A stretch of DNA of 41,631 bases from a virus, in IMG/VR virus record IMGVR_UViG_3300014819_000793, positions 5,656 to 47,286 of that record; one strand, 5' to 3'. The stretch's first letter is position 1; each line of letters opens with the position of its first letter. Below are positions 5,022 to 41,631 of this stretch, piece by piece. The notes beneath the pieces are model-generated. The model made no database searches, had not been told where the DNA came from, and worked only from the letters and a program-made list of their open reading frames with translations. The position numbers and the translations under genes were made by a program.

Positions 5022-5755
5022 TGCCCGTAGGTAAGAAACTAATAAAAAGAAAACCTAAAGGTGGAGCCTCACCGCAAGAGTTTTATTTTAATGTTGGCAC
5101 ACAACAAGCAATTGTTGATTATAAAATAGAAAACCAAGCTGATAAAAGAAACGAAATATACATTCGTGATATATTACCTGCTTTTAACAAGTTGGTTGAA
5201 AACCTTATTAACGTATATGGATTTCAAATCCAATATGAAAGTAAATCTGATTTACAAAACGAATGTGTGGAGTTTTTGTATGGAGTTATTACAAAATTTG
5301 ATCCAAGTAAAGGTACAAAAGCATTTTCATACTTTAACGTTGTTGCCAAAAACTGGTTAATTATTAAAAGCAAACAAAGCGTCAGAAGTATGCATGTATT
5401 TACAAGTTTAGATGATAAAGAAACATTAACACCACAAGATTTAGAAACAATTGAAAACTTTATTATTTCACCTTCCCCAGAAGATACAATGATTCATGAC
5501 GTAGAAAGAAACAAACTTGATTTTATCTTAAAATCAATTGAATCTCAAACTGTAACAGAAAATGAAATTGAATGTTTGAAAGGTATCAATATGTTGTTTT
5601 CAAACATTAACGAATTAGATTTTCTTAACAAGCGTGCTGTGATGCTATATCTGAGAGAAATATGTGGATTATCCCCAAAGCAACTAAGTGTTGTTTTATC
5701 ATTGATGAAAAAATATTACAAAGTTGCCAAAGAAGAATATGAAGTAAGCCAATAA
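5021..5755 (+). CDS. Late-transcription sigma factor, T4 gp55-like
   Basis: This 244-residue protein would recruit host RNA polymerase to phage late promoters. The key stretch is FDPSKGTKAFSYF (residues 93-105), followed by a helix with basic residues. It corresponds in place and pattern to the sigma region 2-like segment of T4 gp55 (FDETKYKNPHAYI) and to region 2 of ordinary sigma factors. The N terminus is basic (KKLIKRKPK). It is about 60 residues longer than T4 gp55, the extra being a C-terminal helical part ending in LSPKQLSVVLSLMKKYY, which resembles a helix-turn-helix like region 4. The neighbouring structural genes are natural targets. A distant group of phage sigma factors other than gp55 is the alternative. 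Confidence 0.75.
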   Translation: MPVGKKLIKRKPKGGASPQEFYFNVGTQQAIVDYKIENQADKRNEIYIRDILPAFNKLVENLINVYGFQIQYESKSDLQNECVEFLYGVITKFDPSKGTKAFSYFNVVAKNWLIIKSKQSVRSMHVFTSLDDKETLTPQDLETIENFIISPSPEDTMIHDVERNKLDFILKSIESQTVTENEIECLKGINMLFSNINELDFLNKRAVMLYLREICGLSPKQLSVVLSLMKKYYKVAKEEYEVSQ

Positions 5756-9268: not shown

Positions 9269-11146
9269 ATGCCTGTTGATTCCAGACGCAATATTCAACA
9301 ACTAATCAAATCTAGAAAATATCTTAACAAAGACTTTGATAGTTTTCGTGCTGACTTAGAAGAATATGCACGCACTTATTTTCCTGATCGTATTCAAGAT
9401 TTTTCTGCAAACGGATTTGGTGGTTTGTTACTTGAATTAGCATCTTATGTTGGTGACGTTCAAAGTTTTTATCTGGATCATCAATTTGGTGAGCTGAATG
9501 CAGAAACAGCAGTTGAGCCAAAGAATCTTGAAAAGCTTTTAAGAGAAGCAGGGGTTGATATTGTTGGAGCAGCACCAGCAGTTTGCCCTGTTACCTTTTA
9601 TGTGCGTATTCCTGCTGCAACAAACAACCCAAATGGCAACCAACCATATGATACAACAGCTTTGCCTATTATTAAAGAAGGTACATTGTTGAATTCAAAT
9701 CGTGGTGTTCAATTTCAGCTTATTGAAGATATTGATATGACTCTTACAAAAAGCGATGGAACACCTGCTAATGGTATAACATATGTAAATGGTGAATTAA
9801 GTCCAAACGGAACTCCTTTAAATTATATATTTGAAGCAACTGGACAAGCATTGTCTAGCGTAACATATACAGAGTCTTTTGACGTAACAGGGTTTCAACC
9901 TTTTAAAAGACACACATTACAAAATAGAGATGTTTCAGATATAATATCAGTGACAGATTCTAATGGAAATACCTATTATGAAGTTGGATTTCTAACACAA
10001 GACACGATATATAAAGAAGTAAGAAATAGAAATCCAACAACAACAACTCCATCAAGCGAAGTTTATGTTGATTCAAACATTGAATTAGTTCCTGCTCCAT
10101 ACAGATTTTACAAAAACACATCTTTGAACAGTAGACTAACAACGTTGGTTTTTGGTGGTGGGTCTGCTGATGCACTTGGAGAAGATCTTGTGCCCGATCC
10201 AAGTGAGGCAGCATTACCTTTGTATGGACGTAAAAACTTTTCACGCTTTACAATAGATCCAAACAATTTGTTAAGAACAGCTACGTTAGGTGCTATAGCA
10301 GCAGATGTAACAATTACAGTAACTTATCGTGCTGGTGGTGGTTTAAATCACAATATTCCTCCACAAAGTATCACAGAAATAGCAACCTTATATACCGAGT
10401 TTCCAAACAATCCAACTGCTACAATAGCTGCAAATGTCAGAGCTTCTGCCGATGCAAATAACAATAGCAATGCCAGAGGTGGAGCCAATCCACCCACGCT
10501 TGATGAATTACGTTTACAAGTTCCAAGCGCAAGAAATGCACAATCAAGAATTGTAAGCAAACAAGACTTGATAGCAAGAATATATTCACTTCCAGCAAAC
10601 TTTGGTCGTGTATATCGTTGTTCTATAAGAAATAACCCAAACAATCCTAATAGTGCAATGCTTTATATTCTTTGTAGAAATGATTTAAACGAACTTGTGC
10701 TGGCACCAGATATGCTCAAAAACAACCTCAAGGTATATCTGAATCAATATCGGATGATATCTGATGCAATCGATATCCTTGATGGTCAAATCATTAATTT
10801 ACAAATCAACTATGACATAACAGTTGATCCAACATTTAATCGACAATTGGTTTTGCAAAATGTTCAAGCAAAACTAATACAATACTTCGATGTTGGAAAT
10901 TTCCAAATGGATCAACCATTGATTCTAGATGATGTAAGAAACATAATCTATAATAATGTTGGTGTTTTAGCTGTTAGAGATATAGCAGTTACAAATATAA
11001 CAGGTACTGTAGGTGATAGAATTTATAGCAATGTATCCTACAATGTAAATTCTAACTTGATTAACAACACAATATTAATACCGCCTGCTGGTGGGATGTT
11101 TGAAATAAAATACTTTGCTTCGGACTTAGTTGGTAGAGCTATTTAG
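9269..11146 (+). CDS. Baseplate wedge subunit, T4 gp6-like (baseplate J family)
   Basis: This 625-residue protein belongs to the gp6/baseplate J family, which forms the iris-like ring that joins wedges around the hub. The N terminus carries YLNKDFDSFRADLEEYARTY and FGGLLLELASYVGDVQSFYL, very characteristic of gp6 in marine T4-like phages. The C-terminal part has the family's strand-helix pattern (VYLNQYRMISDAIDILDGQI followed by NYDITVDP) and a final domain with LILDDVRNIIYNNVGVLAVR. It is preceded by ATAAGGATAA, a reasonable ribosome site. It directly follows the gp25 homologue after 43 bases and precedes a probable fibre or wedge accessory gene. Confidence 0.92.
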   Translation: MPVDSRRNIQQLIKSRKYLNKDFDSFRADLEEYARTYFPDRIQDFSANGFGGLLLELASYVGDVQSFYLDHQFGELNAETAVEPKNLEKLLREAGVDIVGAAPAVCPVTFYVRIPAATNNPNGNQPYDTTALPIIKEGTLLNSNRGVQFQLIEDIDMTLTKSDGTPANGITYVNGELSPNGTPLNYIFEATGQALSSVTYTESFDVTGFQPFKRHTLQNRDVSDIISVTDSNGNTYYEVGFLTQDTIYKEVRNRNPTTTTPSSEVYVDSNIELVPAPYRFYKNTSLNSRLTTLVFGGGSADALGEDLVPDPSEAALPLYGRKNFSRFTIDPNNLLRTATLGAIAADVTITVTYRAGGGLNHNIPPQSITEIATLYTEFPNNPTATIAANVRASADANNNSNARGGANPPTLDELRLQVPSARNAQSRIVSKQDLIARIYSLPANFGRVYRCSIRNNPNNPNSAMLYILCRNDLNELVLAPDMLKNNLKVYLNQYRMISDAIDILDGQIINLQINYDITVDPTFNRQLVLQNVQAKLIQYFDVGNFQMDQPLILDDVRNIIYNNVGVLAVRDIAVTNITGTVGDRIYSNVSYNVNSNLINNTILIPPAGGMFEIKYFASDLVGRAI

Positions 11147-31834: not shown

Positions 31835-32938
31835 ATGAAGATGTATGATTATATTTGTAAAACCTGCAATACTCCTTTCCAACACCGCAAACCAAATAAA
31901 GTTTATTGTTCCAAGAAATGTTATTTTGATGCGATAGCAGAAACATGGAGAGTTGAAAGAAACTGCATAAGTTGTGGAGAAAAATATATTCCTTCACACA
32001 AAAAACAAGAATATTGTGGACATAAATGTCATGGAAAATTTCTTGGACAGTCCAATAAAAACTCAGTAAATGTGAGTTGTGAACGTTGTGGCAAACAGTT
32101 TGAACGCAGAGTCTCTGCTGTGAATAAAAAGAATTATTGTTCTTTAGATTGTGTGAAATTGCCAACAACAAAAAATTGTGAAGCTTGTAAAAAAGAATAT
32201 AAGGTTGGGTCTAGTCATTGGCAAACTTCTAGATTTTGTTCGAAATCATGTGCAAAATCTGGTAAAAATCATCATTTTTATGGTAAGCATTTTGAGATGC
32301 CACAGGGTTATGAACCGTGGATCAAGGGTAAAACCGTAGCAACTGATGAAAAAGTTGCTGAAATGGCAAGAAAAGTGTCGGAGACACATAAAAAACATTT
32401 CGCTCAAGGCTTGAGAAGTAACAAAGGTAAAAATAACCCAAATTATGGTAAAACGCCAGATCAAAGAACTCAAGAACAATTAGATCGATATTCAAAAGCT
32501 TCTGTTGAACGAATGATGAACTTACAAAGTGTAAAACATAAACGATATGTTAGAGGATTTCATGAAAGTAACAAAGCTGGTAAAATGTTATTTAAGTCTT
32601 CATTAGAAAAAAGAATAATGATTTGTTTTGACAATGATCCAGCTATCGTCTCATATCAATATGAGCCTTTTTCGATACTGTACGAACAAAACAAAAGATA
32701 CATTCCAGATTTTTTAATAACTTACATAGATGGTAATAAAAAACTTATTGAAACAAAAGGTGTTCAATTTATCAAAGAAAAATCGACAGAACAAAAAACA
32801 ATAGCGGCTTTAAAATATTGTAAAGAAAACAATTACAACTATTCAATTTTTACTGCAAAAGAAATAAAAGAATATGAAACAAAACTTGGAATATTGTTTT
32901 CTCTTTCAGAATTGAAAAAGGAGTTAGGAAGATCATGA
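31835..32938 (+). CDS. Homing-type endonuclease: four zinc ribbons, NUMOD3 motifs and PD-(D/E)XK nuclease
   Basis: This is a 367-residue protein. Four short zinc-binding units follow one another: Cys 8/11/25/29, 44/47/61/65, 82/85/102/106 and 115/118/135/139 (pattern CxxC, then about 13-16 residues, then CxxxC). Next are NUMOD3-like motifs (GKNHHFYGKHF at 143-153 and GKNNPNYGKT at 198-207), typical DNA-contacting parts of homing endonucleases. Residues 253-340 are a PD-(D/E)XK domain: Glu258, Asp292 in RYIPDFLITY, and Glu306/Lys308 in KKLIETKG. No GIY-YIG or HNH motif is present. It is a free-standing gene at a module boundary, as expected for a mobile endonuclease. Its stop overlaps the next start (ATGA). 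The target site is unknown. Confidence 0.85.
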   Translation: MKMYDYICKTCNTPFQHRKPNKVYCSKKCYFDAIAETWRVERNCISCGEKYIPSHKKQEYCGHKCHGKFLGQSNKNSVNVSCERCGKQFERRVSAVNKKNYCSLDCVKLPTTKNCEACKKEYKVGSSHWQTSRFCSKSCAKSGKNHHFYGKHFEMPQGYEPWIKGKTVATDEKVAEMARKVSETHKKHFAQGLRSNKGKNNPNYGKTPDQRTQEQLDRYSKASVERMMNLQSVKHKRYVRGFHESNKAGKMLFKSSLEKRIMICFDNDPAIVSYQYEPFSILYEQNKRYIPDFLITYIDGNKKLIETKGVQFIKEKSTEQKTIAALKYCKENNYNYSIFTAKEIKEYETKLGILFSLSELKKELGRS

Positions 32939-33273: not shown

Positions 33274-34041
33274 TCAGTCAAAAAATACCAAGGTACCTGT
33301 GGTGCTTCTCACACCAATGTTACCTGCATGAAAGTCTTTTATGTTAATAGCTGTAAGTGCTTTCATACAAGCTTTTAGTTGTTTGTACCAACCATCACTG
33401 AGTTGAAGATGTTCGCCAAGTTCTTTAACTCGTTTTTTATGATCTGAAGTAACAACTGCTCCACTAAATATGGATGAGATTATTTCATCGATTATAGTAT
33501 TAACAAAAGCTTTATCATCTTCAGATATTGGTTTAAACTTTTCCATTAAAATCCAATTGATATTTTTATCTTTGTATTTCAAGATACCTTGATCGTAGAT
33601 CATTGGCATACAAGCACCAAGTTTTTTATCTTTTGACCACAAGGCTTTAGCTGATTTAAAAGCTCTAACTGCGCTTGAAATCTTTTCTGAGCCGTGTTCG
33701 ATTTCAATTTTAAGAATCATATCACCTAAATCAAATGCATCTCCGATTGCGCCTGATCCAAGATATTTTATGGGCTTGGAACCAATAATACGTTTAAGCA
33801 TTTCTTGGTTTTGTTCTATAAACTCTTCAGCAACTTTAAATGGACCAACATCTTTAACAGACTTTTGAAAAAAGTTACCTGTCCAACTCTCATTATTTAC
33901 TATCATTGGCAACAAAACATCAATTAGTTTTTCTTCTGAGGCAGACTTTTTAACAGGAGTTGGTTTTGGTTTTGCTAAATTAGCTGGACGAGTTGAATCA
34001 TCGCTATCATCACTCTCAAACAATATTTTGTAAAGCTTCAT
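33274..34041 (-). CDS. Kinase-like protein ending at the metal-binding Asp (paralogue A), with capsid-targeting-like N terminus
   Basis: This 255-residue protein is the only gene on the minus strand. After the N-terminal MKLYKILFES and a polar Pro/Lys linker (to about residue 38) comes a protein-kinase-like core: Gly-rich loop LGSGAIGDAF (94-103), LKIE with Lys111, hinge-like ILMEKFKP, then the catalytic loop DFHAGN (Asp236, His238, Asn241) and LVFFD, whose Asp255 is both the expected metal ligand and the last residue. The Asp-to-Asp distance (19) is what aminoglycoside-phosphotransferase and protein kinases show. The substrate-binding half of the C lobe is absent. It is a paralogue of the genes at 38422 and 40065. 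Phosphorylation, nucleotidylation or an inactive binding role are all possible. Confidence 0.75.
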   Translation of the reverse strand: MKLYKILFESDDSDDSTRPANLAKPKPTPVKKSASEEKLIDVLLPMIVNNESWTGNFFQKSVKDVGPFKVAEEFIEQNQEMLKRIIGSKPIKYLGSGAIGDAFDLGDMILKIEIEHGSEKISSAVRAFKSAKALWSKDKKLGACMPMIYDQGILKYKDKNINWILMEKFKPISEDDKAFVNTIIDEIISSIFSGAVVTSDHKKRVKELGEHLQLSDGWYKQLKACMKALTAINIKDFHAGNIGVRSTTGTLVFFD

Positions 34042-34044
34042 AAC

Positions 34045-34063
34045 AATATATAGGCTATATATT
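34045..34063. promoter_or_regulatory. Perfect inverted repeat in the divergent promoter region
   Basis: AATATATAG (34045-34053), one G, then CTATATATT (34055-34063) form a perfect 9-bp palindrome in the 29-base gap between two divergent start codons (34041 on minus, 34071 on plus). On both strands TATA-type sequence faces the gene. On the minus strand ATAAATA overlaps it and is one base shy of the T4 late box TATAAATA. It may act as a two-way promoter or operator. The short distance to both ATGs would leave nearly leaderless messages. Confidence 0.4.
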
Positions 34064-34070
34064 TATCCAC

Positions 34071-35927
34071 ATGAACATAGAAAAACTTTTAGAGTATTAT
34101 CTGCTTGTTGAAGGCCAATTTGATGTTTGGTTATCGAAGAACCCAAACGAAAACAAAGAGCAAGCAAAAAAATATTTTGATGATTTAACAACAAGATATA
34201 ATGCTTCTTTACACCCTTCAGCAAGAGATTTAACAAAATTATCTTTTGAACAACTTGAAACGTTGCATAAAGCAATTGAAAAAGCAAGAGAAAAAAATCT
34301 TAAGCCTTTACTGATTCAATGGCTTACCAAGCAAATCAAGGAACGCAATCTAGATTTCAAGGTAATTGAAGAAGATTATATTCCACCTTTACAACAAGTT
34401 GTAAAACTTAATAATTTAGATTTATTAAACCAAGTTAGTTCTATTGAAGAACTAAACAAAGAACTTAACAAAATTGCTCCTGCTGGAACCGCTTCTGTTG
34501 TTTCCGACACAGAGCTTGGCAAATTGGCAGAAAAAAATGGTTGGGGTCTTTATATGCCTCACAGTACAGAAGCTTCTTGTGAATTAGGTAAAACAGGAGG
34601 TAGAAGAGACACAGTTTGGTGTACTACAAGAACAGAAGGACAAAATTTGTTTTTAGACTATTCTGGAGGAATTGATCAAGATGTTATTTTGTTTTATGTT
34701 ATTAAAAAAGGTGTAAACGCAGAAAATGATCCATTAGCAAAAATGTCTGTTGGATTTATTAATGGTCAACCAAGATTTAATCTAGGAGACAACAGCATAA
34801 CAGTTGACGCAAACAATAAGAATCTAACGGAAAAACAGTTTAAAGAAGTTATGGGAGAACAATTAGCAACAGAGTTTCTTGGTTTAATGAAGCAAAAAGC
34901 AAAAGAAATAGGAGGCAAACATCCAATAAAGCAAGAATTTCAAAGGTTGGTTCAAGACCCAAAAGCTTATTTCGCAAAACTTGATACCTTTGCGAAAACT
35001 GAGCAAGGTGAAGAATTCAAAATAAGCTTCATAAAACAAAGTGTGAAATATCCAAAAGTTTCAGAGGAAATTTTGTTGTCTATTTTAGGAACTACCTATG
35101 AGAATTTTGATGATAATTTCGCAATTCGTGAAGCAATTGCAACAAATCCAGATACTCCAGTAAAAATTTTGTTTATTCTGTCAAAAGATAAATTTAAGGA
35201 AATTCGTGGGTTTGTTGCAGAGAACGAAAAAACTCCAATAGATCTTTTAAAAACCCTTGCTGAAGAAGAAACAGAATGGGTCCGTGCAAGTGTTGCAAAA
35301 AACAAAAAAACTCCAATAGATCTTTTAAAAATCCTTGCTGAAGATGATTCAAGTTTGGTGCGTGCAACTGTTGCAAAAAATGAAAACACCCCATCAGAGG
35401 TTTTAAAAGACCTTGCAGAATCATATCATGAAAAAGTTCGTGCTGCTGTTGCACAAAACAAAAAAACACCAGCAGAAACATTGTTAGCTTTAGCAACAAA
35501 AGGTGATGAATTTGATTACTATGTTCAAGATGCTGCTGTAAAAAATCCAAGTTTGCCTGTGTCTTATATAAATCAGCTTTTATCAAGTAAACGATCTTGG
35601 CTTAAAAGTGGTTTAGCAAGAAATATAAACACTCCACCAGAGGCTTTGGCTGATATGGCAAAAACAGGTACTTCAACAGTTCGTTTAGGTGTTGCAGAAA
35701 ACGAAAGCACTCCACCAGAGGTTCTAAGTTTTCTTGCCAAAGATTATCAGGAAGAACAAGTACGTCAAATGGTTGCATTAAATCCAAATACGAAAACAGA
35801 AGACTTGATTATTCTTTCAAAAGATTTTGATTCAGATGTTCGTGATTCAGCCAAAGCGGAATTAAAAAAACGTAACGTAACAGAAACAATACTACACAAG
35901 GTTTTAACTAAACTATTGTACTTATAA
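34071..35927 (+). CDS. LRV-repeat protein with N-terminal conserved phage domain and capsid-targeting-like start
   Basis: This is a 618-residue protein. The start MNIEKLLEYYLLVEGQ carries an LVE-Gly site like the prohead-protease cut in T4. Residues about 140-290 hold a domain seen in phage proteins (GWGLYMPHSTEASCELGK, then VWCTTRTEG, VILFYVIKKG); I know no function for it. Residues 359 to about 596 form nine repeats of about 26 residues of the leucine-rich-variant type (NxxTPxxxLxxLA...VRxxVAx), which build a curved helical solenoid for protein or nucleic acid binding. The protein ends shortly after the repeats. It is divergent from the minus-strand kinase-like gene, sharing its promoter region. 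It does not resemble its tail-protein neighbours. Confidence 0.75.
   Translation: MNIEKLLEYYLLVEGQFDVWLSKNPNENKEQAKKYFDDLTTRYNASLHPSARDLTKLSFEQLETLHKAIEKAREKNLKPLLIQWLTKQIKERNLDFKVIEEDYIPPLQQVVKLNNLDLLNQVSSIEELNKELNKIAPAGTASVVSDTELGKLAEKNGWGLYMPHSTEASCELGKTGGRRDTVWCTTRTEGQNLFLDYSGGIDQDVILFYVIKKGVNAENDPLAKMSVGFINGQPRFNLGDNSITVDANNKNLTEKQFKEVMGEQLATEFLGLMKQKAKEIGGKHPIKQEFQRLVQDPKAYFAKLDTFAKTEQGEEFKISFIKQSVKYPKVSEEILLSILGTTYENFDDNFAIREAIATNPDTPVKILFILSKDKFKEIRGFVAENEKTPIDLLKTLAEEETEWVRASVAKNKKTPIDLLKILAEDDSSLVRATVAKNENTPSEVLKDLAESYHEKVRAAVAQNKKTPAETLLALATKGDEFDYYVQDAAVKNPSLPVSYINQLLSSKRSWLKSGLARNINTPPEALADMAKTGTSTVRLGVAENESTPPEVLSFLAKDYQEEQVRQMVALNPNTKTEDLIILSKDFDSDVRDSAKAELKKRNVTETILHKVLTKLLYL
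35145..35858 (+). repeat. Nine LRV repeats, about 78 bp each
   Basis: The repeats encode the solenoid of the preceding gene. Units start with Asn-x-x-Thr-Pro, and most are 26 codons long. Units 2 and 3 are close copies at the DNA level: CTCCAATAGATCTTTTAAAA occurs at 35233 and again at 35311, exactly 78 bases apart, and the homology extends to both sides. The array has therefore grown by recent tandem duplication while its outer units have diverged. Unit 5 is three residues longer. Confidence 0.8.
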
Positions 35928-35960
35928 ACTGCGAATCAATAAACTGCATACTTAGCATTA

Positions 35961-38387
35961 ATGTCAATTCAACGTTTTGAACCCGGAGATATTGAGTTTT
36001 TCTCAATTCAAACAACTCCACAAACAAATTTTGTTTCTAGTAGCACAGGTGTCACTGGTGCTGTGTATGTATATGCTCGACGTTCAAATGCAATCAAAGA
36101 TTACTATGTGAATTGGTCAGCAGTTGATGGAACACCAACTGGTTCATTCCAAGAAATCAATGACATTGATGATGTTATTAAATTCGCTAGCATATCAACA
36201 AATTCTACACAGCTAACAAATCGTGTAAAACAATATTTGAATGTGGTTGGCAAACAACCTCAAAGCGCAAGAAATCAACAAAAGCAAGAAGTTGTAAGAT
36301 TCACGCCGGGAGTTAATTTAACTCTAGACATGACTCGTAAGTTTGTAACAACAAACGTATTAATACCAGATTATGCAACTCATGGTTCTTCTTATGACTT
36401 TTCTTTTACAAACTATCATTCATTAAACTTTCTAACAGCCAGTGGATTGCCAACAGGTTCAGCTTTGCTATATCCAGCATCAGGTTCTGCTACAGGTGTT
36501 GGTAATATTGTTTCATCAAGTTATATTCCTTCTGGAGCATTTTCTTTTGATTTTTGGATTAATCCAAGATACACCACAAACACAGAAACTTCTGAATTCA
36601 AAGCAGGAACCTTGCTTCATATGTCTGGAGCATATGCTTTAAGCTTGATATCTGGTTCAAGTAAAGACACAAATGGCTTTGTTGATGGATATAGATTGTT
36701 GTTGCAACTAAGCAGTTCAGCAAAACTATTACCTTCAACAATCAATCCAGCAAGTCCCTCAACTTTTTGTTTTGTGTCTGATGATAATGCATTAACAAGA
36801 AACACTTGGCATCATGTAACAATACGTTGGGGTAGTAACAAATACAATTTTGGTTCTGGTTCTTTTATGATTGATGGAGTTGAATCTGGAACCTTTTACA
36901 TTCCTTCAGCAAGCGTAGCTCCATTACAAGAAGCTGGTGTTGCTTTACCAAGTATTTTAACTGTTGGTAACTTTCTAGAATGTCCAGAAAACGGAACATC
37001 AGCTTATTTCTTTTCTGACAGAGCACAAGTAAGATATGGTGTTCCTGTTAGTGCTTCAGCGTTCATAAACTATTCACCACCCAACTATGATGAACCTTCT
37101 AGCTATGGTTTAAACCATCCTCTTAATGCAGAAGTTCATGAATTAAAAATTTATAGCAAGTACCTACCACAATATGAAATAGCCTCTAGAAGCCTTTCTA
37201 GTGCCCCTCTAAACGATCCAAATTTGTTGTTTTATCTTCCTCCGTTCTTTACAAAAGAATCGCCTAATAGGGCTGTAGACACTGTTCAAGGACTAGGTGG
37301 AGTATTGGTTCATCCTTTCCAATGTGTTAGTGGAACAACAGAACATCCATTTAATGTTGATTTAAGTTTTGATACAGGTGGACATTATATCAATCTTGAA
37401 AACTGGACAAGAGAGTTTGTTAATGGCAACTATCCAAGACTTATCCAATTAACAGGAAGTGCTCTTGTAGGTAACACCGCACAACTTACAGCCAACCAAT
37501 TTCTTTACAGCACTGGATCAGTTAGAAAAGCAAGCTTAACAGTTTTACCTTGTGACAATGGACCATTTACGCCAAGTTATTATGATATGTTGAATAACTT
37601 GAATTCAACATCATATGTAAATGACTATAATATTCCAGCTTTTAACCTTGTAACATTACGCAGTATGTATCCATTGGATAGCATATATGATTTAGTTTCT
37701 CCTACAAGCGGTAGTAAGTTTCTAAACACCAACACACAAGCAAATCAAATCATATCTGCCCTTACAGGTTTTGATTCAACAAGTTCTTTTGGTACTTTAA
37801 ATCCTCAAAAGGCACCAACAATTCTACAACGAACACAAGAAAACAATTCACTTCAAGTTGTTATATTTGATATATCAAACTTGTTTTATGGCAACCGTAT
37901 AACACCGGGAACCTTTACAATTGTTGATGCAAATCTATCCAACAGTTATGGAAAAATAGCCATGACTCTTAAAGATGATGGGTTTGGAAACATATATCGA
38001 GCAGACACCACAGGCTCTAAGGCAACAAACAATTCTGTTGGTAACATCTTTTACGATCATGGATTGGTGTTGATTAAAAATCCAAGCCTTTATTGGTTTG
38101 GAGAAAATGGATTTGGTTGTAGCTTTCAAGGTGAAAGAAACATTCACGTAATGAAAGCAGACTTGTATGCAGATTCACTTCAACTTGTTAGTTCCAGTAA
38201 TCCCGGTTGGTCTAAATCACTTCAAGCAACAAATGACATAGATGATTATGATAAACGTTATGTTTATATTACTGATCTATATTTGCACGATGACAACTTA
38301 AATGTGATTGCAAGAACAAAGTTGGCTCAACCTGTTTTAAAACGTACCGGAGAACGCTTAAAATTCACCACAAAAATAGACTTTTAA
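35961..38387 (+). CDS. Large virion protein with LamG-like domain and shared C-terminal module (copy 2)
   Basis: This is an 808-residue protein. The N terminus (MSIQRFEPGDIEFFSIQTTP) leads to a LamG/concanavalin-like domain at about residues 190-400 (SGAFSFDFWINPRYTT at its start, TWHHVTIRWGSNKYNFGSGS in its middle, LNAEVHELKIYSKYLPQYEI at its end). The last 200 residues contain VGNIFYDHGLVLIKNPSLYW and YVYITDLYLHDDNLNVIART, homologous to the C terminus of the protein at 30531. It is thus a tail or fibre protein that may bind sugars through the LamG-like fold. It lies beyond the accessory block, separated from the main tail module by four non-structural genes, with a 33-base gap before and a 34-base gap after. 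Confidence 0.78.
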   Translation: MSIQRFEPGDIEFFSIQTTPQTNFVSSSTGVTGAVYVYARRSNAIKDYYVNWSAVDGTPTGSFQEINDIDDVIKFASISTNSTQLTNRVKQYLNVVGKQPQSARNQQKQEVVRFTPGVNLTLDMTRKFVTTNVLIPDYATHGSSYDFSFTNYHSLNFLTASGLPTGSALLYPASGSATGVGNIVSSSYIPSGAFSFDFWINPRYTTNTETSEFKAGTLLHMSGAYALSLISGSSKDTNGFVDGYRLLLQLSSSAKLLPSTINPASPSTFCFVSDDNALTRNTWHHVTIRWGSNKYNFGSGSFMIDGVESGTFYIPSASVAPLQEAGVALPSILTVGNFLECPENGTSAYFFSDRAQVRYGVPVSASAFINYSPPNYDEPSSYGLNHPLNAEVHELKIYSKYLPQYEIASRSLSSAPLNDPNLLFYLPPFFTKESPNRAVDTVQGLGGVLVHPFQCVSGTTEHPFNVDLSFDTGGHYINLENWTREFVNGNYPRLIQLTGSALVGNTAQLTANQFLYSTGSVRKASLTVLPCDNGPFTPSYYDMLNNLNSTSYVNDYNIPAFNLVTLRSMYPLDSIYDLVSPTSGSKFLNTNTQANQIISALTGFDSTSSFGTLNPQKAPTILQRTQENNSLQVVIFDISNLFYGNRITPGTFTIVDANLSNSYGKIAMTLKDDGFGNIYRADTTGSKATNNSVGNIFYDHGLVLIKNPSLYWFGENGFGCSFQGERNIHVMKADLYADSLQLVSSSNPGWSKSLQATNDIDDYDKRYVYITDLYLHDDNLNVIARTKLAQPVLKRTGERLKFTTKIDF

Positions 38388-38421
38388 TTTGTCTAAAGAA
38401 TCAATGTAATAATTATTTTGT

Positions 38422-39207
38422 ATGATTAAGTTAAAGCCACTATTGTTTGAAGGTGTTAGCCGAGAAGAATCCGAAAAAAATGACGATGGCGAGCCCGAGC
38501 CCCGTCCCCCCAAGCGAGGTGTTAGCCGAGAAGAATTCGAAAAAACATTTTATGATACAATGAAAGGAAACAATCCTTTGATTGGAGAAATTCCAGATGT
38601 TGAAGAGTTCTATGAATTAAACAAACAAGTTCTTGATGGAATTCTTCAAGGTGCAACAGAATTTCGCTTTCTTGGTGCAGGAGCGAATGGTTCAGCTTAT
38701 TCAATTGGGAACAAACAAGTTTTGAAAATTGAACCGGGAGGATACAGAGCAGAAACAATTGCTTCAAGATTTGATAAGCAAATGAAAACTGGCTTGCACC
38801 ATCCTATGATTTATCATAATGGAAAATTAAAAACCAAAGATGGAGAAGAATTATCATTTGCAATCTTAGAGAAAATGGAAATTCCTAGTAGTGAAGATCT
38901 TTTGGTCATAAAAGAAATCATTGAAATAATTGACGATATTATGAATAGCGTGAAACGTGTTAAACAGCGTGATGGAAAATTTAAACGCACACCATATTCT
39001 CCAAAAGACGTTGTAAAAGAATTAATGCTTAGAGAAGCAGACAAAATCAAGGAAATAGGAGAAAAGCTAAGGCTAAAAGATGATTGGTTGGAAAAACTTA
39101 TTAACCACATGTTTAAAGTTCGAAAAGAAAATCTTTCTGATTTTCATTCTGGAAACATAGGAGTAAGAAGAATTGGTCCAGAAGGTTATTTAGTATTTTT
39201 TGACTGA
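38422..39207 (+). CDS. Kinase-like protein ending at the metal-binding Asp (paralogue B)
   Basis: This is a 261-residue paralogue of the proteins at 33274 and 40065. The N terminus MIKLKPLLFEG has the LxE-Gly form of a prohead-protease site. It is followed by a linker containing a duplicated GVSREE(S/F)EK segment with the GC-rich insert DDGEPEPRPPK between the copies. The core shows FLGAGANGSAYSIG (83-96), VLKIE with Lys102, hinge ILEKMEIP, the loop DFHSGN (Asp240, His242, Asn245) and LVFFD, whose Asp261 is the final residue. The distance of 21 from Asp to Asp suits a kinase active site. It lies 12 bases before the exonuclease gene, so the two are probably co-transcribed. The substrate is unknown. 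Confidence 0.75.
   Translation: MIKLKPLLFEGVSREESEKNDDGEPEPRPPKRGVSREEFEKTFYDTMKGNNPLIGEIPDVEEFYELNKQVLDGILQGATEFRFLGAGANGSAYSIGNKQVLKIEPGGYRAETIASRFDKQMKTGLHHPMIYHNGKLKTKDGEELSFAILEKMEIPSSEDLLVIKEIIEIIDDIMNSVKRVKQRDGKFKRTPYSPKDVVKELMLREADKIKEIGEKLRLKDDWLEKLINHMFKVRKENLSDFHSGNIGVRRIGPEGYLVFFD
38452..38544 (+). repeat. 27-bp direct repeat enclosing a GC-rich insert
   Basis: GGTGTTAGCCGAGAAGAA plus nine more bases occurs at 38452-38478 and at 38518-38544, differing at one base (ATCC versus ATTC), with a period of 66 bp (22 codons, frame kept). Bases 38482-38517 between the copies are about 75% GC (27 of 36), made of GAG, CCC, CGT and GGC codons that are rare elsewhere in the window. The layout suggests a duplication that came with a foreign or slippage-made insert. 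Confidence 0.8.
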
Positions 39208-40349
39208 TACTTAATTGTTATGAACCATCATCTTAAAACAATCATAAAATCTGTTATTACTGAAGGTAAGATCGAAAGAAAAAAGTTTGATTTAAAACAA
39301 CTTGTTGATTTTATCAAAAACAGAGTTATTATTTTCTTTGATACAGAAACAACTGGATTAGATCCAAGAAGAAGCTTTAGGTTGATCACCGAAATTGCTG
39401 CTGTTGCTTATGATACTTCAACAGGACAAAGACTTGGAGAATACAGCAAAAAAGCTCATTTAACAGATCCAGTTAAGCAAAGAATGGAAAAAGAAAAACA
39501 ACGAAAAGAAAAAGGTGAATGGCCCAAAGATAAACCAACCATTGAAGACCTTCTAAAGATGACAGCCTACCATGAAGGTGATGTTCCTTACGAAGAAGAA
39601 AAAGAAATGATGAAAGGCTTCTTGGATTTCGTTAACAGCTTTGCTGATAAAAATCCAATCTTAGTTGCTCACAATGCAAAGTTTGATATGTATCAAGTTG
39701 GTAAAGCTTTGGAAACTCATGGTTTACCAAAGATGCCAAGATATAATGTTGCAGATTCTGTTGTGATTGCAAGAGAATATTTGTTTCCATTACTTGTTGC
39801 TCAAGAAAAAGAAGCAAAAGGAACTTTGAATCCAGAATCTGAACTTGCTCATTTGTTAAAAGCAGTTAGACCACAAAAAAGATTTAGTGCAAAACTAATA
39901 TCTCTTGGTCAAGGATTCAAAGTTGATACAAAGCATTGGCATAGTGCTATTGCTGACACAGAGCAACTAGCTGGAATCCTAGCTAGAATGATTCAATTTT
40001 TTGAATCATCATATTGATTACTCTTCTATCGAATGAGTTTCACTGTTTGTTAGTAATTAGTTTTATGATAAAACTTAGAAAAATACTTTTTGAAAGCGTT
40101 AGTCCCGAAACGTTTATAGATGTGTTGAAACAAACCACTATTGGTAGAGATAATACATCAAATCCATTATCCCAATATATTTGGGATGCTGAAATGTTTT
40201 ATAATTCAAACAAAAAAACCCTTGATGAAATCTTAAAAGATGCTGATGAGTTTAGTTTTCTTGGCGCAGGAGTCAATGGAGCAGCTTATTCAATCGGAGA
40301 TCGAGTTTTGAAAATTGAACCGGGAGGATACAGAGCAGAAACAATTGCT
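38718..40349 (+). repeat. Identical 46-bp segments in kinase-like paralogues B and C
   Basis: Bases 38718-38763 and 40304-40349 are identical (they encode VLKIEPGGYRAETIA and flanks). A further 38 bp are identical at 39149-39186 and 40780-40817 (catalytic loop region). Between these blocks the two genes differ widely. The repeats are direct and flank the exonuclease gene, so recombination between them would delete or duplicate it. This entry spans the first pair; it is not one continuous repeat. Confidence 0.85.
39220..40017 (+). CDS. DEDDh 3'-5' exonuclease (DnaQ/RNase T-like) with capsid-targeting-like start
   Basis: This is a 265-residue protein. Exonuclease motif I is FFDTETTGLD (Asp41, Glu43), motif II is LVAHNAKFDM (Asp), and motif III is HWHSAIADTEQLAG (His and Asp), so all four DEDDh residues and the His are present and the enzyme should be active on DNA or RNA 3' ends. 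A charged insert (KEKQRKEKGEWPKDKP) separates motifs I and II. The N terminus MNHHLKTIIKSVITEG precedes the nuclease fold and carries ITE-Gly, a possible prohead-protease site. The gene lies between two kinase-like paralogues, away from any replication gene in the window, so a proofreading role is not indicated. Degradation of host nucleic acid or a late repair role are options. Confidence 0.88.
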   Translation: MNHHLKTIIKSVITEGKIERKKFDLKQLVDFIKNRVIIFFDTETTGLDPRRSFRLITEIAAVAYDTSTGQRLGEYSKKAHLTDPVKQRMEKEKQRKEKGEWPKDKPTIEDLLKMTAYHEGDVPYEEEKEMMKGFLDFVNSFADKNPILVAHNAKFDMYQVGKALETHGLPKMPRYNVADSVVIAREYLFPLLVAQEKEAKGTLNPESELAHLLKAVRPQKRFSAKLISLGQGFKVDTKHWHSAIADTEQLAGILARMIQFFESSY

Positions 40350-40838
40350 ACTGGTCTTTACGGTAAAAAAGAAACAGGTGTTCATCATCCTATGATTTAT
40401 TACAGTGGAAAACTAAAAATGCCCGACCCTGACGATCCCGAACGATATGATGATACGTTGCATTATTCAATCATGGAAAAGTTTGAAATCCCCAGTGCGG
40501 AACTTCAAATTGATTTAGAGAAACTCATTGGTAAAATCGACCATTTAATGAACACAAAAGAATATGTCAGAGAACCTAATGGAGAAATAGCCAGAGATTC
40601 TGATGGAAAACGCATAGGCAAACTATATTCAAAACAAGAAATCAAAGATGAATTAGAGAATACAAGACAAGATGAAATAAACCGTGTTGGTGAACAACTA
40701 AGATTAAAAGATGGTTGGTTAGATAAATTAATGGATCATATGTACCGTATTTCAGAAGAAGGTCTTCAAGATTTTCATGCTGGAAACATAGGAGTAAGAA
40801 GAATTGGTCCAGAAGGTGACTTAGTATTTTTTGATTGA
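40065..40838 (+). CDS. Kinase-like protein ending at the metal-binding Asp (paralogue C)
   Basis: This 257-residue protein is the closest relative of the product at 38422. I chose the ATG at 40065 because it gives MIKLRKILFES, aligned with the starts of paralogues A and B. The open frame reaches back to 40014, but those extra residues overlap the exonuclease stop and match nothing. Landmarks are FLGAGVNGAAYSIG (65-78), Lys83 in VLKIE, hinge IMEKFEIP, DFHAGN (Asp236, His238, Asn241) and a terminal LVFFD (Asp257). A middle insert (REPNGEIARDSDGKR) is charged and probably a loop. Its stop is followed after 49 bases by the nuclease gene at 40888. Confidence 0.75.
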   Translation: MIKLRKILFESVSPETFIDVLKQTTIGRDNTSNPLSQYIWDAEMFYNSNKKTLDEILKDADEFSFLGAGVNGAAYSIGDRVLKIEPGGYRAETIATGLYGKKETGVHHPMIYYSGKLKMPDPDDPERYDDTLHYSIMEKFEIPSAELQIDLEKLIGKIDHLMNTKEYVREPNGEIARDSDGKRIGKLYSKQEIKDELENTRQDEINRVGEQLRLKDGWLDKLMDHMYRISEEGLQDFHAGNIGVRRIGPEGDLVFFD

Positions 40839-41334: not shown

Positions 41335-41631
41335 ATGTGGTATACTGGATCTATGAACGTTGGTAAGCTTTATCAAGTCAAGAAGCTTTATTGGATGATT
41401 TATCCATCCACCGCCGCCTCCTTCGTTGACACCGCCACCGCCCACGACCCTGTTCGCTGTGGCGAGAAGTCCGCTGCCACCGCCGCCGCTTATTATAGCA
41501 AGTATTTTAACTGCAACGTTTCTTATATTTCTCCAAACAGCATTTTCTGCCTTTTGGAAAAAGATGGAGAATTTATCAGGATTCTTTCAGCCAATGGAGA
41601 AGTTGGTTGGATTAATCTTGCTGATTGGTGC
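41335..41631 (+). CDS. Unrecognised phage protein, 3' end outside window, with GC-rich insert
   Basis: The frame is open from ATG 41335 to the right edge (99 codons) and has no stop inside the window. It begins MWYTGSMNVGKLYQVKKLYW, and a second ATG at 41353 (MNVGKLYQVKKLYWMIYPS) is an equally likely start. An Ala/Thr-rich stretch from the GC-rich insert follows, then AAYYSKYFNCNVSYISPNSI, FCLLEKDGEFIRILSANGEV and GWINLADWC. The last part looks like a small beta-barrel (SH3-like) with a GxxGWI turn. I know no function for it. No ribosome site is visible. It follows the gp4-like gene after 18 bases. Confidence 0.6.
   Translation, partial: MWYTGSMNVGKLYQVKKLYWMIYPSTAASFVDTATAHDPVRCGEKSAATAAAYYSKYFNCNVSYISPNSIFCLLEKDGEFIRILSANGEVGWINLADWC
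41407..41490 (+). repeat. GC-rich low-complexity insert (ACC/GCC-rich)
   Basis: These 84 bases (28 codons) are about 71% GC (60 of 84), against roughly one third for the window. They consist mostly of TCC, ACC and GCC codons with CACCGCC repeated several times, and encode STAASFVDTATAHDPVRCGE then KSAATAAA. The reading frame is kept and the borders are sharp: TGGATGATTTATCCA before and TATTATAGCAAG after. It looks like a slippage-expanded or acquired segment in a tolerant loop. Confidence 0.75.

Follow-up and report, generated by a model that had tools for sequence, protein, structure and literature searches.

Why should proteins as unlike as kinase-like enzymes, an exonuclease and a repeat protein begin with much the same short peptide? 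The question is posed by five genes between positions 33274 and 40838 of a 41,631-nt stretch of viral DNA (the window; positions 5,656 to 47,286 of IMG/VR record IMGVR_UViG_3300014819_000793), which a sequence-only reading had taken for five neighbouring proteins with one common T4-like capsid-targeting N terminus, cut after (I/L)xE by a gp21-type prohead protease and delivered into the host with the DNA. In T4, foreign proteins are packaged when given just ten residues of the internal protein IPIII, of which those at positions 4 and 7 serve in targeting and those at 8 and 10 govern processing (PMC9026906). The present analysis distinguishes two leaders, A (MKLYxILFE) and B (LKTIIKxxLLxE↓G/A, the arrow marking the proposed cleavage site), which we consider likely to be removable capsid-targeting propeptides of a T4-like myovirus lineage whose cargo would be injected into the host. 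The genes and leaders of the window are as follows.

33274..34041, minus strand: leader-A protein 1, an open reading frame (ORF) of 255 aa, kinase-like or aminoglycoside phosphotransferase (APH)-like; paralog of the genes at 38422 and 40065, the family fold resembling aminoglycoside phosphotransferases.
34015..34041, minus strand: its leader A, MKLYKILFE↓S, from the translation; K, L, L, F and E are invariant in six family members.
34071..35927, plus strand: LRV protein with a leader-B-like start, 618 aa, a conserved N-terminal region followed by LRV (HEAT/ARM-like) repeats (Pfam LRV, E 6.7e-30).
34071..34112, plus strand: its diverged leader B, MNIEKLLEYYLLVE↓G; the orthologs have MNQRLLKTIIKQVLLTE↓A and MNQRQILKAIIKQILLTE↓A.
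38422..39207, plus strand: leader-A protein 2, an ORF of 261 aa, kinase/APH-like.
38422..38451, plus strand: its leader A, MIKLKPLLFE↓G, from the translation and the family alignment.
39220..40017, plus strand: leader-B protein, 265 aa, a DEDD-type 3'-5' exonuclease (Pfam RNase_T, 6.2e-10).
39220..39264, plus strand: its leader B, MNHHLKTIIKSVITE↓G, from the ortholog (MNSSLKSLKTIIHSVLLE↓G) and the leader-B test.
40065..40838, plus strand: leader-A protein 3, an ORF of 257 aa, kinase/APH-like, a paralog.
40065..40094, plus strand: its leader A, MIKLRKILFE↓S, from the translation and the family alignment.

All five N termini are present in the translations where they had been reported, but the single common leader gives way to two types, with A on three proteins and B on two, as LKTIIKSVITE↓G on the exonuclease and in the diverged form LLEYYLLVE↓G on the LRV protein. 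The positions of the five genes stand, although a tail-type protein at 35961-38387 interrupts the run, and the three leader-A proteins, of which the other two are 55% and 37% identical to the first (33274..34041), are paralogs rather than independent cases. The internal control held: leader A is absent from the N termini of the record's tail, glycosyltransferase, homing-nuclease, metallopeptidase and gp4-like ORFs, and a baseplate-like ORF at 9269 (IQQLIKSRKY) fits a loose leader-B pattern by chance. The earliest possible start of the ORF that holds leader-A protein 3 is a TTG at 40014, ahead of the ATG at 40065 with which the leader begins.

In the alignment of the kinase-like family the leader residues are invariant and the next ∼50 columns are variable, while a Gly-rich loop and LK.E, DFHxGN and FFD motifs are conserved. 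A Foldseek search with the structural model returned APH(2'') kinases (E 3e-5, probability 1.0, TM score only 0.3); no Pfam kinase family matched, a PDB sequence search of the family gave chance matches only, and no match was found in the phage collection. Residues 1-20 of the AlphaFold model of leader-A protein 2 (38422) have a per-residue confidence (pLDDT) <50 and are predicted to be disordered, and the LRV protein is modelled as a HEAT/ARM-like solenoid. The exonuclease passes the curated family cut-off (PF00929, 40.3 bits vs. a cut-off of 24).

Taken alone, the window is weak evidence. The (I/L)xE ending followed by Gly or Ser is indeed there, but the generic rule of (I/L/V)xE then G/S/A at residues 8-18 is satisfied by 4 of 40 ORFs in the window's record vs. 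3 of 40 in the next bin, and because this hardly exceeds background the record's own statistical support is poor. A leader-blind pair test, which compares N-terminal similarity among non-homologous proteins with that at control residues, likewise gave 0 vs. 0 pairs there, so that a short leader on unrelated proteins is not seen in this record by itself.

A departure from chance is visible only with relatives. Single window proteins used as queries against viral contigs yielded no close relatives, whereas the three-protein alignment did, its profile leading to seven loci. Runs of unrelated genes starting MKLxxILFE are found in L003/G001 (66 kb) and L004/G002 (123 kb); a peptide scan of 2.9 million viral contigs added G030 (260 kb) and G033 (87 kb), both rich in leader-A genes (∼23 in G030), and a second scan using the other Lys codon contributed P-loop and further proteins. 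The LRV protein has orthologs at G001 47774 and G030 145265, in whose alignment the LLxE of the leader is kept and followed by a small residue, and the exonuclease has one at G030 144338 (49%). In the pair test, counts at the N terminus vs. control were 70 vs. 6 in G030, 24 vs. 1 in G002, 22 vs. 2 in G033 and 5 vs. 0 in G001; a separate small-ORF family (GKLY/GKMY) accounts for some of the pairs in G002 and G030. The same test picked up MKTYQEFIAE in T4 (8 vs. 3) and gave 18 vs. 4 in phage immuto, which has a leader of its own (MENFDLKKFLVENKLT) and ordinary signal peptides; HTVC008M, S-PM2 and Mel-JY01 were at background level. A signal-peptide reading of leaders A and B was rejected: they are short peptides without an extended hydrophobic core, and the real signal peptides of immuto in the pair test look different.

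The core of leader A, defined without its Glu and tested on the four related records (G001, G002, G030, G033), starts 30 ORFs vs. a shuffle mean of 0.45 (maximum 5 in 2000 shuffles), or 42 if the start may fall anywhere in the first 60 residues of the longest ORF, and occurs at 1 of 2175 internal methionines; the pattern begins no ORF in the five reference phages T4, immuto, S-PM2, HTVC008M and Mel-JY01. A Glu follows the core within three residues in 41 of the 42 (immediately in 30), and where displaced it mostly ends an xxE triplet (LNE, LHE, ISE, ITE, TNE, ANE). The sole internal copy, MKLYEILFEN, lies at residue 118, in the middle of a 244-aa protein (G001:C1:6251-6985). Six consecutive paralogs at G030:C1:4325-9095 start MKLYPIIYLNE↓A/G or TNE↓A, with the Glu displaced by two residues.

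Could such a shared start simply have arisen through gene duplication and 5'-end recombination, with the conserved 5' DNA acting as a cassette boundary and having no function in the protein? Some of the genes do form paralog arrays, the six of G030 among them, and at some places the same codon is used repeatedly, for instance CTA for the first Leu. The leucine, lysine and glutamate codons nevertheless differ synonymously, from which it follows that the peptide is what is conserved; the residues flanking the leader diverge completely, the Glu can shift to +3 together with its own xxE context, and orthologs retain the leader while losing the next 50 residues. A cassette origin is for these reasons very improbable.

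What follows the leader is diverse. Leader A precedes 37 clusters without mutual BLASTP similarity beyond residue 22, a count in which some clusters may be very distant relatives and some singletons chance, the scan loci having been picked with this very pattern. Domains named by Pfam are Nudix, Fe/Mn superoxide dismutase and GNAT among leader-A cargo, and RNase_T and a Zeta-toxin-like P-loop among leader-B cargo. As the Nudix and superoxide dismutase domains start intact at residue 12, from profile position 1, the leader is an addition to a complete domain. Several cargo proteins show, by eye, YHGT or YRG-like motifs that recall ADP-ribosyltransferases, a likeness that Pfam did not confirm. 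PADLOC returned only scattered single matches. The superoxide dismutase (L061 3233-3856, L065, L087), a phage Fe/Mn enzyme to which leader A (MKLKDILFEQ) is appended, is a candidate for packaging in the head as an antioxidant enzyme.

Of 682 lineage ORFs, 11 begin with leader B and an LxE↓G/A/S site; control windows yield 0-2, and the reference phages 1 of 968. The pattern was composed after examples had been seen, and it was found and tested on the same data. Leader B also provides a link to the head. In G001 and G030 an S77 (gp21-type) prohead protease adjoins the portal, a gp22-like scaffold and a gp23-like capsid protein, and a gene between protease and scaffold in this head operon has leader B at its N terminus (FKTIVKECLKELVAE↓G). 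The scaffold itself contains SLKDLVKSLFE↓GAEGF or SLKDFARSLFE↓GAEGF, with an in-frame ATG and AAAGGG upstream in both genomes, which suggests a predicted, internally started form of the scaffold with a leader-like start. The ATG concerned lies inside the scaffold ORF at G030:C1:192962 and G001:C1:63962 and is followed by KNSLKD..SLFE↓GAEGF. The capsid proteins start QLME↓G and QLAE↓G, and that of immuto QLFE↓G.

These head-operon sites bear on whether the leaders dock elsewhere than at the head, on the tail tube or hub, a phage-made compartment, or a degradation or assembly factor. The window's record encodes a contractile-type tail, and extracellular contractile injection systems use N-terminal cargo signals (PMC11297309). 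In contractile injection systems such signals load the tube lumen. Against this, the constant Glu that closes the leader, or that belongs to an xxE when displaced, is consistent with a protease site; the head operon contains both a leader-B gene and an SLFE↓G site; and a 618-aa repeat protein is better suited to a head than to a tube; docking outside the head is accordingly rated unlikely.

The 29-base gap (34042-34070) between the divergent leader-A and leader-B genes carries a late-promoter-like motif on both strands and is a possible shared divergent late promoter; the two tentative copies are given here.

34046..34053, minus strand: late-promoter-like motif CTATATAT (tentative), upstream of 34041 and close to the start.
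34055..34062, plus strand: late-promoter-like motif CTATATAT (tentative), upstream of 34071.

The T4 late promoter TATAAATA was rejected as the late signal, being depleted here, and CTAT(A/T)TA was found instead. Motifs of this type lie upstream of 16 of 64 structural, 9 of 22 leader-B and 6 of 42 leader-A genes and 2 of 89 genes in the metabolic/small-ORF region; the same data had also served to choose the motif, and genes were assigned to the regions by position.

We infer that hydrophobic and basic residues of the leader would bind the assembling prohead core (the gp22-like scaffold), that the S77 protease would cut after the leader Glu, and that the freed cargo would stay inside the head and later pass into the cell alongside the DNA. 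The cargo of the window would then be three kinase/APH-like proteins, a DEDD exonuclease and an LRV-repeat protein, which are probably counter-defence or take-over factors. Cleavage of leader A and the action of the cargo are the least certain of these steps.

Alternatively, targeting might be real and the leader remain uncut, the proteins being tethered to capsid or core and acting in assembly rather than in the host. The two functions are separable in T4, where Asp at position 10 stops processing and not targeting (PMC9026906), and the residue after the leader-A Glu is permissive. Against a permanent leader speak the near-invariance of the Glu, the LNE, ISE and ITE variants, which preserve the (I/L)xE pattern, and a cargo of soluble enzymes without known assembly role, and we regard it as improbable.

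Several observations weigh against removable capsid-targeting propeptides, beyond the poor statistics of the window's record and the joint choosing and testing of the leader-B pattern and the promoter-like motif. After its Glu, leader A often has E, Q, K, V or N, a looser choice than the G/A/S of leader B, and owing to this permissiveness its cleavage is less certain than its targeting. In the LRV model a low-confidence helix crosses the proposed cut site. Neither leader has sequence homology to the T4 sequence MKTYQEFIAE, the likeness being a functional analogy, and no virion proteome of the lineage was found. The gp21-type protease that the sequence-only reading had called for is present in the relatives G001 and G030 but missing from G002, G033 and the window's record, a 48.6-kb fragment in which neither Peptidase_S77 nor the G030 protease found a match. 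Head genes are absent from this fragment and from G002, so that the missing protease says nothing in either; the fragment lacks portal, capsid, scaffold and protease alike. Among the contigs of the pattern scan the protease occurs in 4 of 15 with a leader vs. 2 of 24 without, no clear difference, and the comparison is itself unclear because the contigs are fragments and many pattern matches are chance.

On the other side stand two marks of capsid-targeting sequences, a short leader on unrelated proteins (the 37 clusters and the pair test in relatives) and an (I/L)xE ending (the leader-A Glu in 41 of 42; LxE↓G/A/S at 11 leader-B N termini). Capsid targeting of the T4 type is the best explanation by virtue of the S77 protease, the complete and unrelated enzyme domains, the head-operon gene and the SLFE↓GAEGF site of the scaffold in relatives. 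The sequence-only reading had lumped the two leaders and counted the paralogs as independent. A bolder version, in which A and B are two parallel head-targeting codes, the internally started short scaffold carries a leader of the same kind, and at least ∼30 enzymes per virion make up an injected arsenal recognisable by sequence alone, is offered tentatively and may well not hold.

Further observations concern neighbouring genes and the reference phage immuto. An insertion at 31835-32938 of the window, between tail and metallopeptidase genes, encodes a zinc-finger/NUMOD3/TnsA-like nuclease, likely a homing endonuclease; a similar gene occupies the same position in G002 (47829-48743). A tandem small-ORF array (window 41335-41631 and L002 991-2646, the record end), whose members start MNIGKLYQVKK.YWMLYPSKE and have an Ala-rich variable middle and a conserved tail, recurs in G002 and G030 (MQLGKMYLVKEWFWFLYPTKE) and represents a second N-terminally similar family with no relation to leader A. 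Flavobacterium phage immuto (L116 43807, L117 7632 and 8633, L118 1803) has an N terminus of its own, MENFDLKKFLVENKLTxNS, common to several proteins; MKKQILSEQFKRMQKLAGIITES starts two immuto proteins and resembles the C terminus of its scaffold-like protein (SRWQKLAGIIK).

If the proposal is correct, the N terminus alone lists the proteins that a phage injects, and dozens of genes of uncultivated T4-like phages, some with clear enzyme folds, become candidate early effectors or counter-defence factors. A second natural leader with which to load phage heads with proteins would likewise be available, and the internal-protein strategy of the T-even phages would scale to tens of enzymes in one lineage. 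The statement that no such set had been described overlooked the T-even internal proteins, which are non-homologous and have only such a leader in common (PMC9026906, PMC12373910); for other T4-like phages, no description of a similar set was found in the literature searched, which left out subscription papers and preprints. What is new is the leader sequences, their occurrence as a pair within one lineage, the size of the set and the enzymes as cargo, the principle being already known in T-evens.

The closest parallel is the capsid-targeting sequence of T4 IPI, IPII and IPIII (Black and colleagues; PMC9026906), likewise a leader of ∼10 residues ending in Glu on non-homologous proteins in a lineage with an S77 prohead protease. 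The sequences differ (MKLYxILFE and LKTIIKxxLLxE vs. MKTYQEFIAE), two leaders are in use at once, and ∼23 leader-A genes in one genome, with recognisable enzymes as cargo, compare with three internal proteins in T4. The T-even proteins Ip1-Ip3, which are packaged and injected and block type IV restriction (PMC12373910), are similarly related solely through the packaging leader and encoded at variable loci, but the cargo here consists of kinases, nucleases, Nudix, superoxide dismutase and GNAT proteins. Among polyvalent effectors, Nudix and ADP-ribosyltransferase proteins have been predicted to be packaged in myovirus heads (PMC9503650), as Nudix and possibly ADP-ribosyltransferase-like proteins are here; that prediction came from fusions to head proteins and gene neighbourhood, in contrast to the removable leader on stand-alone proteins proposed here. 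The ejection proteins of SPN3US and phiKZ-type phages (PMC10052503, PMC5694885) also form a large cargo set with propeptides removed by a prohead protease, although in another phage group and with a protease of another subgroup.

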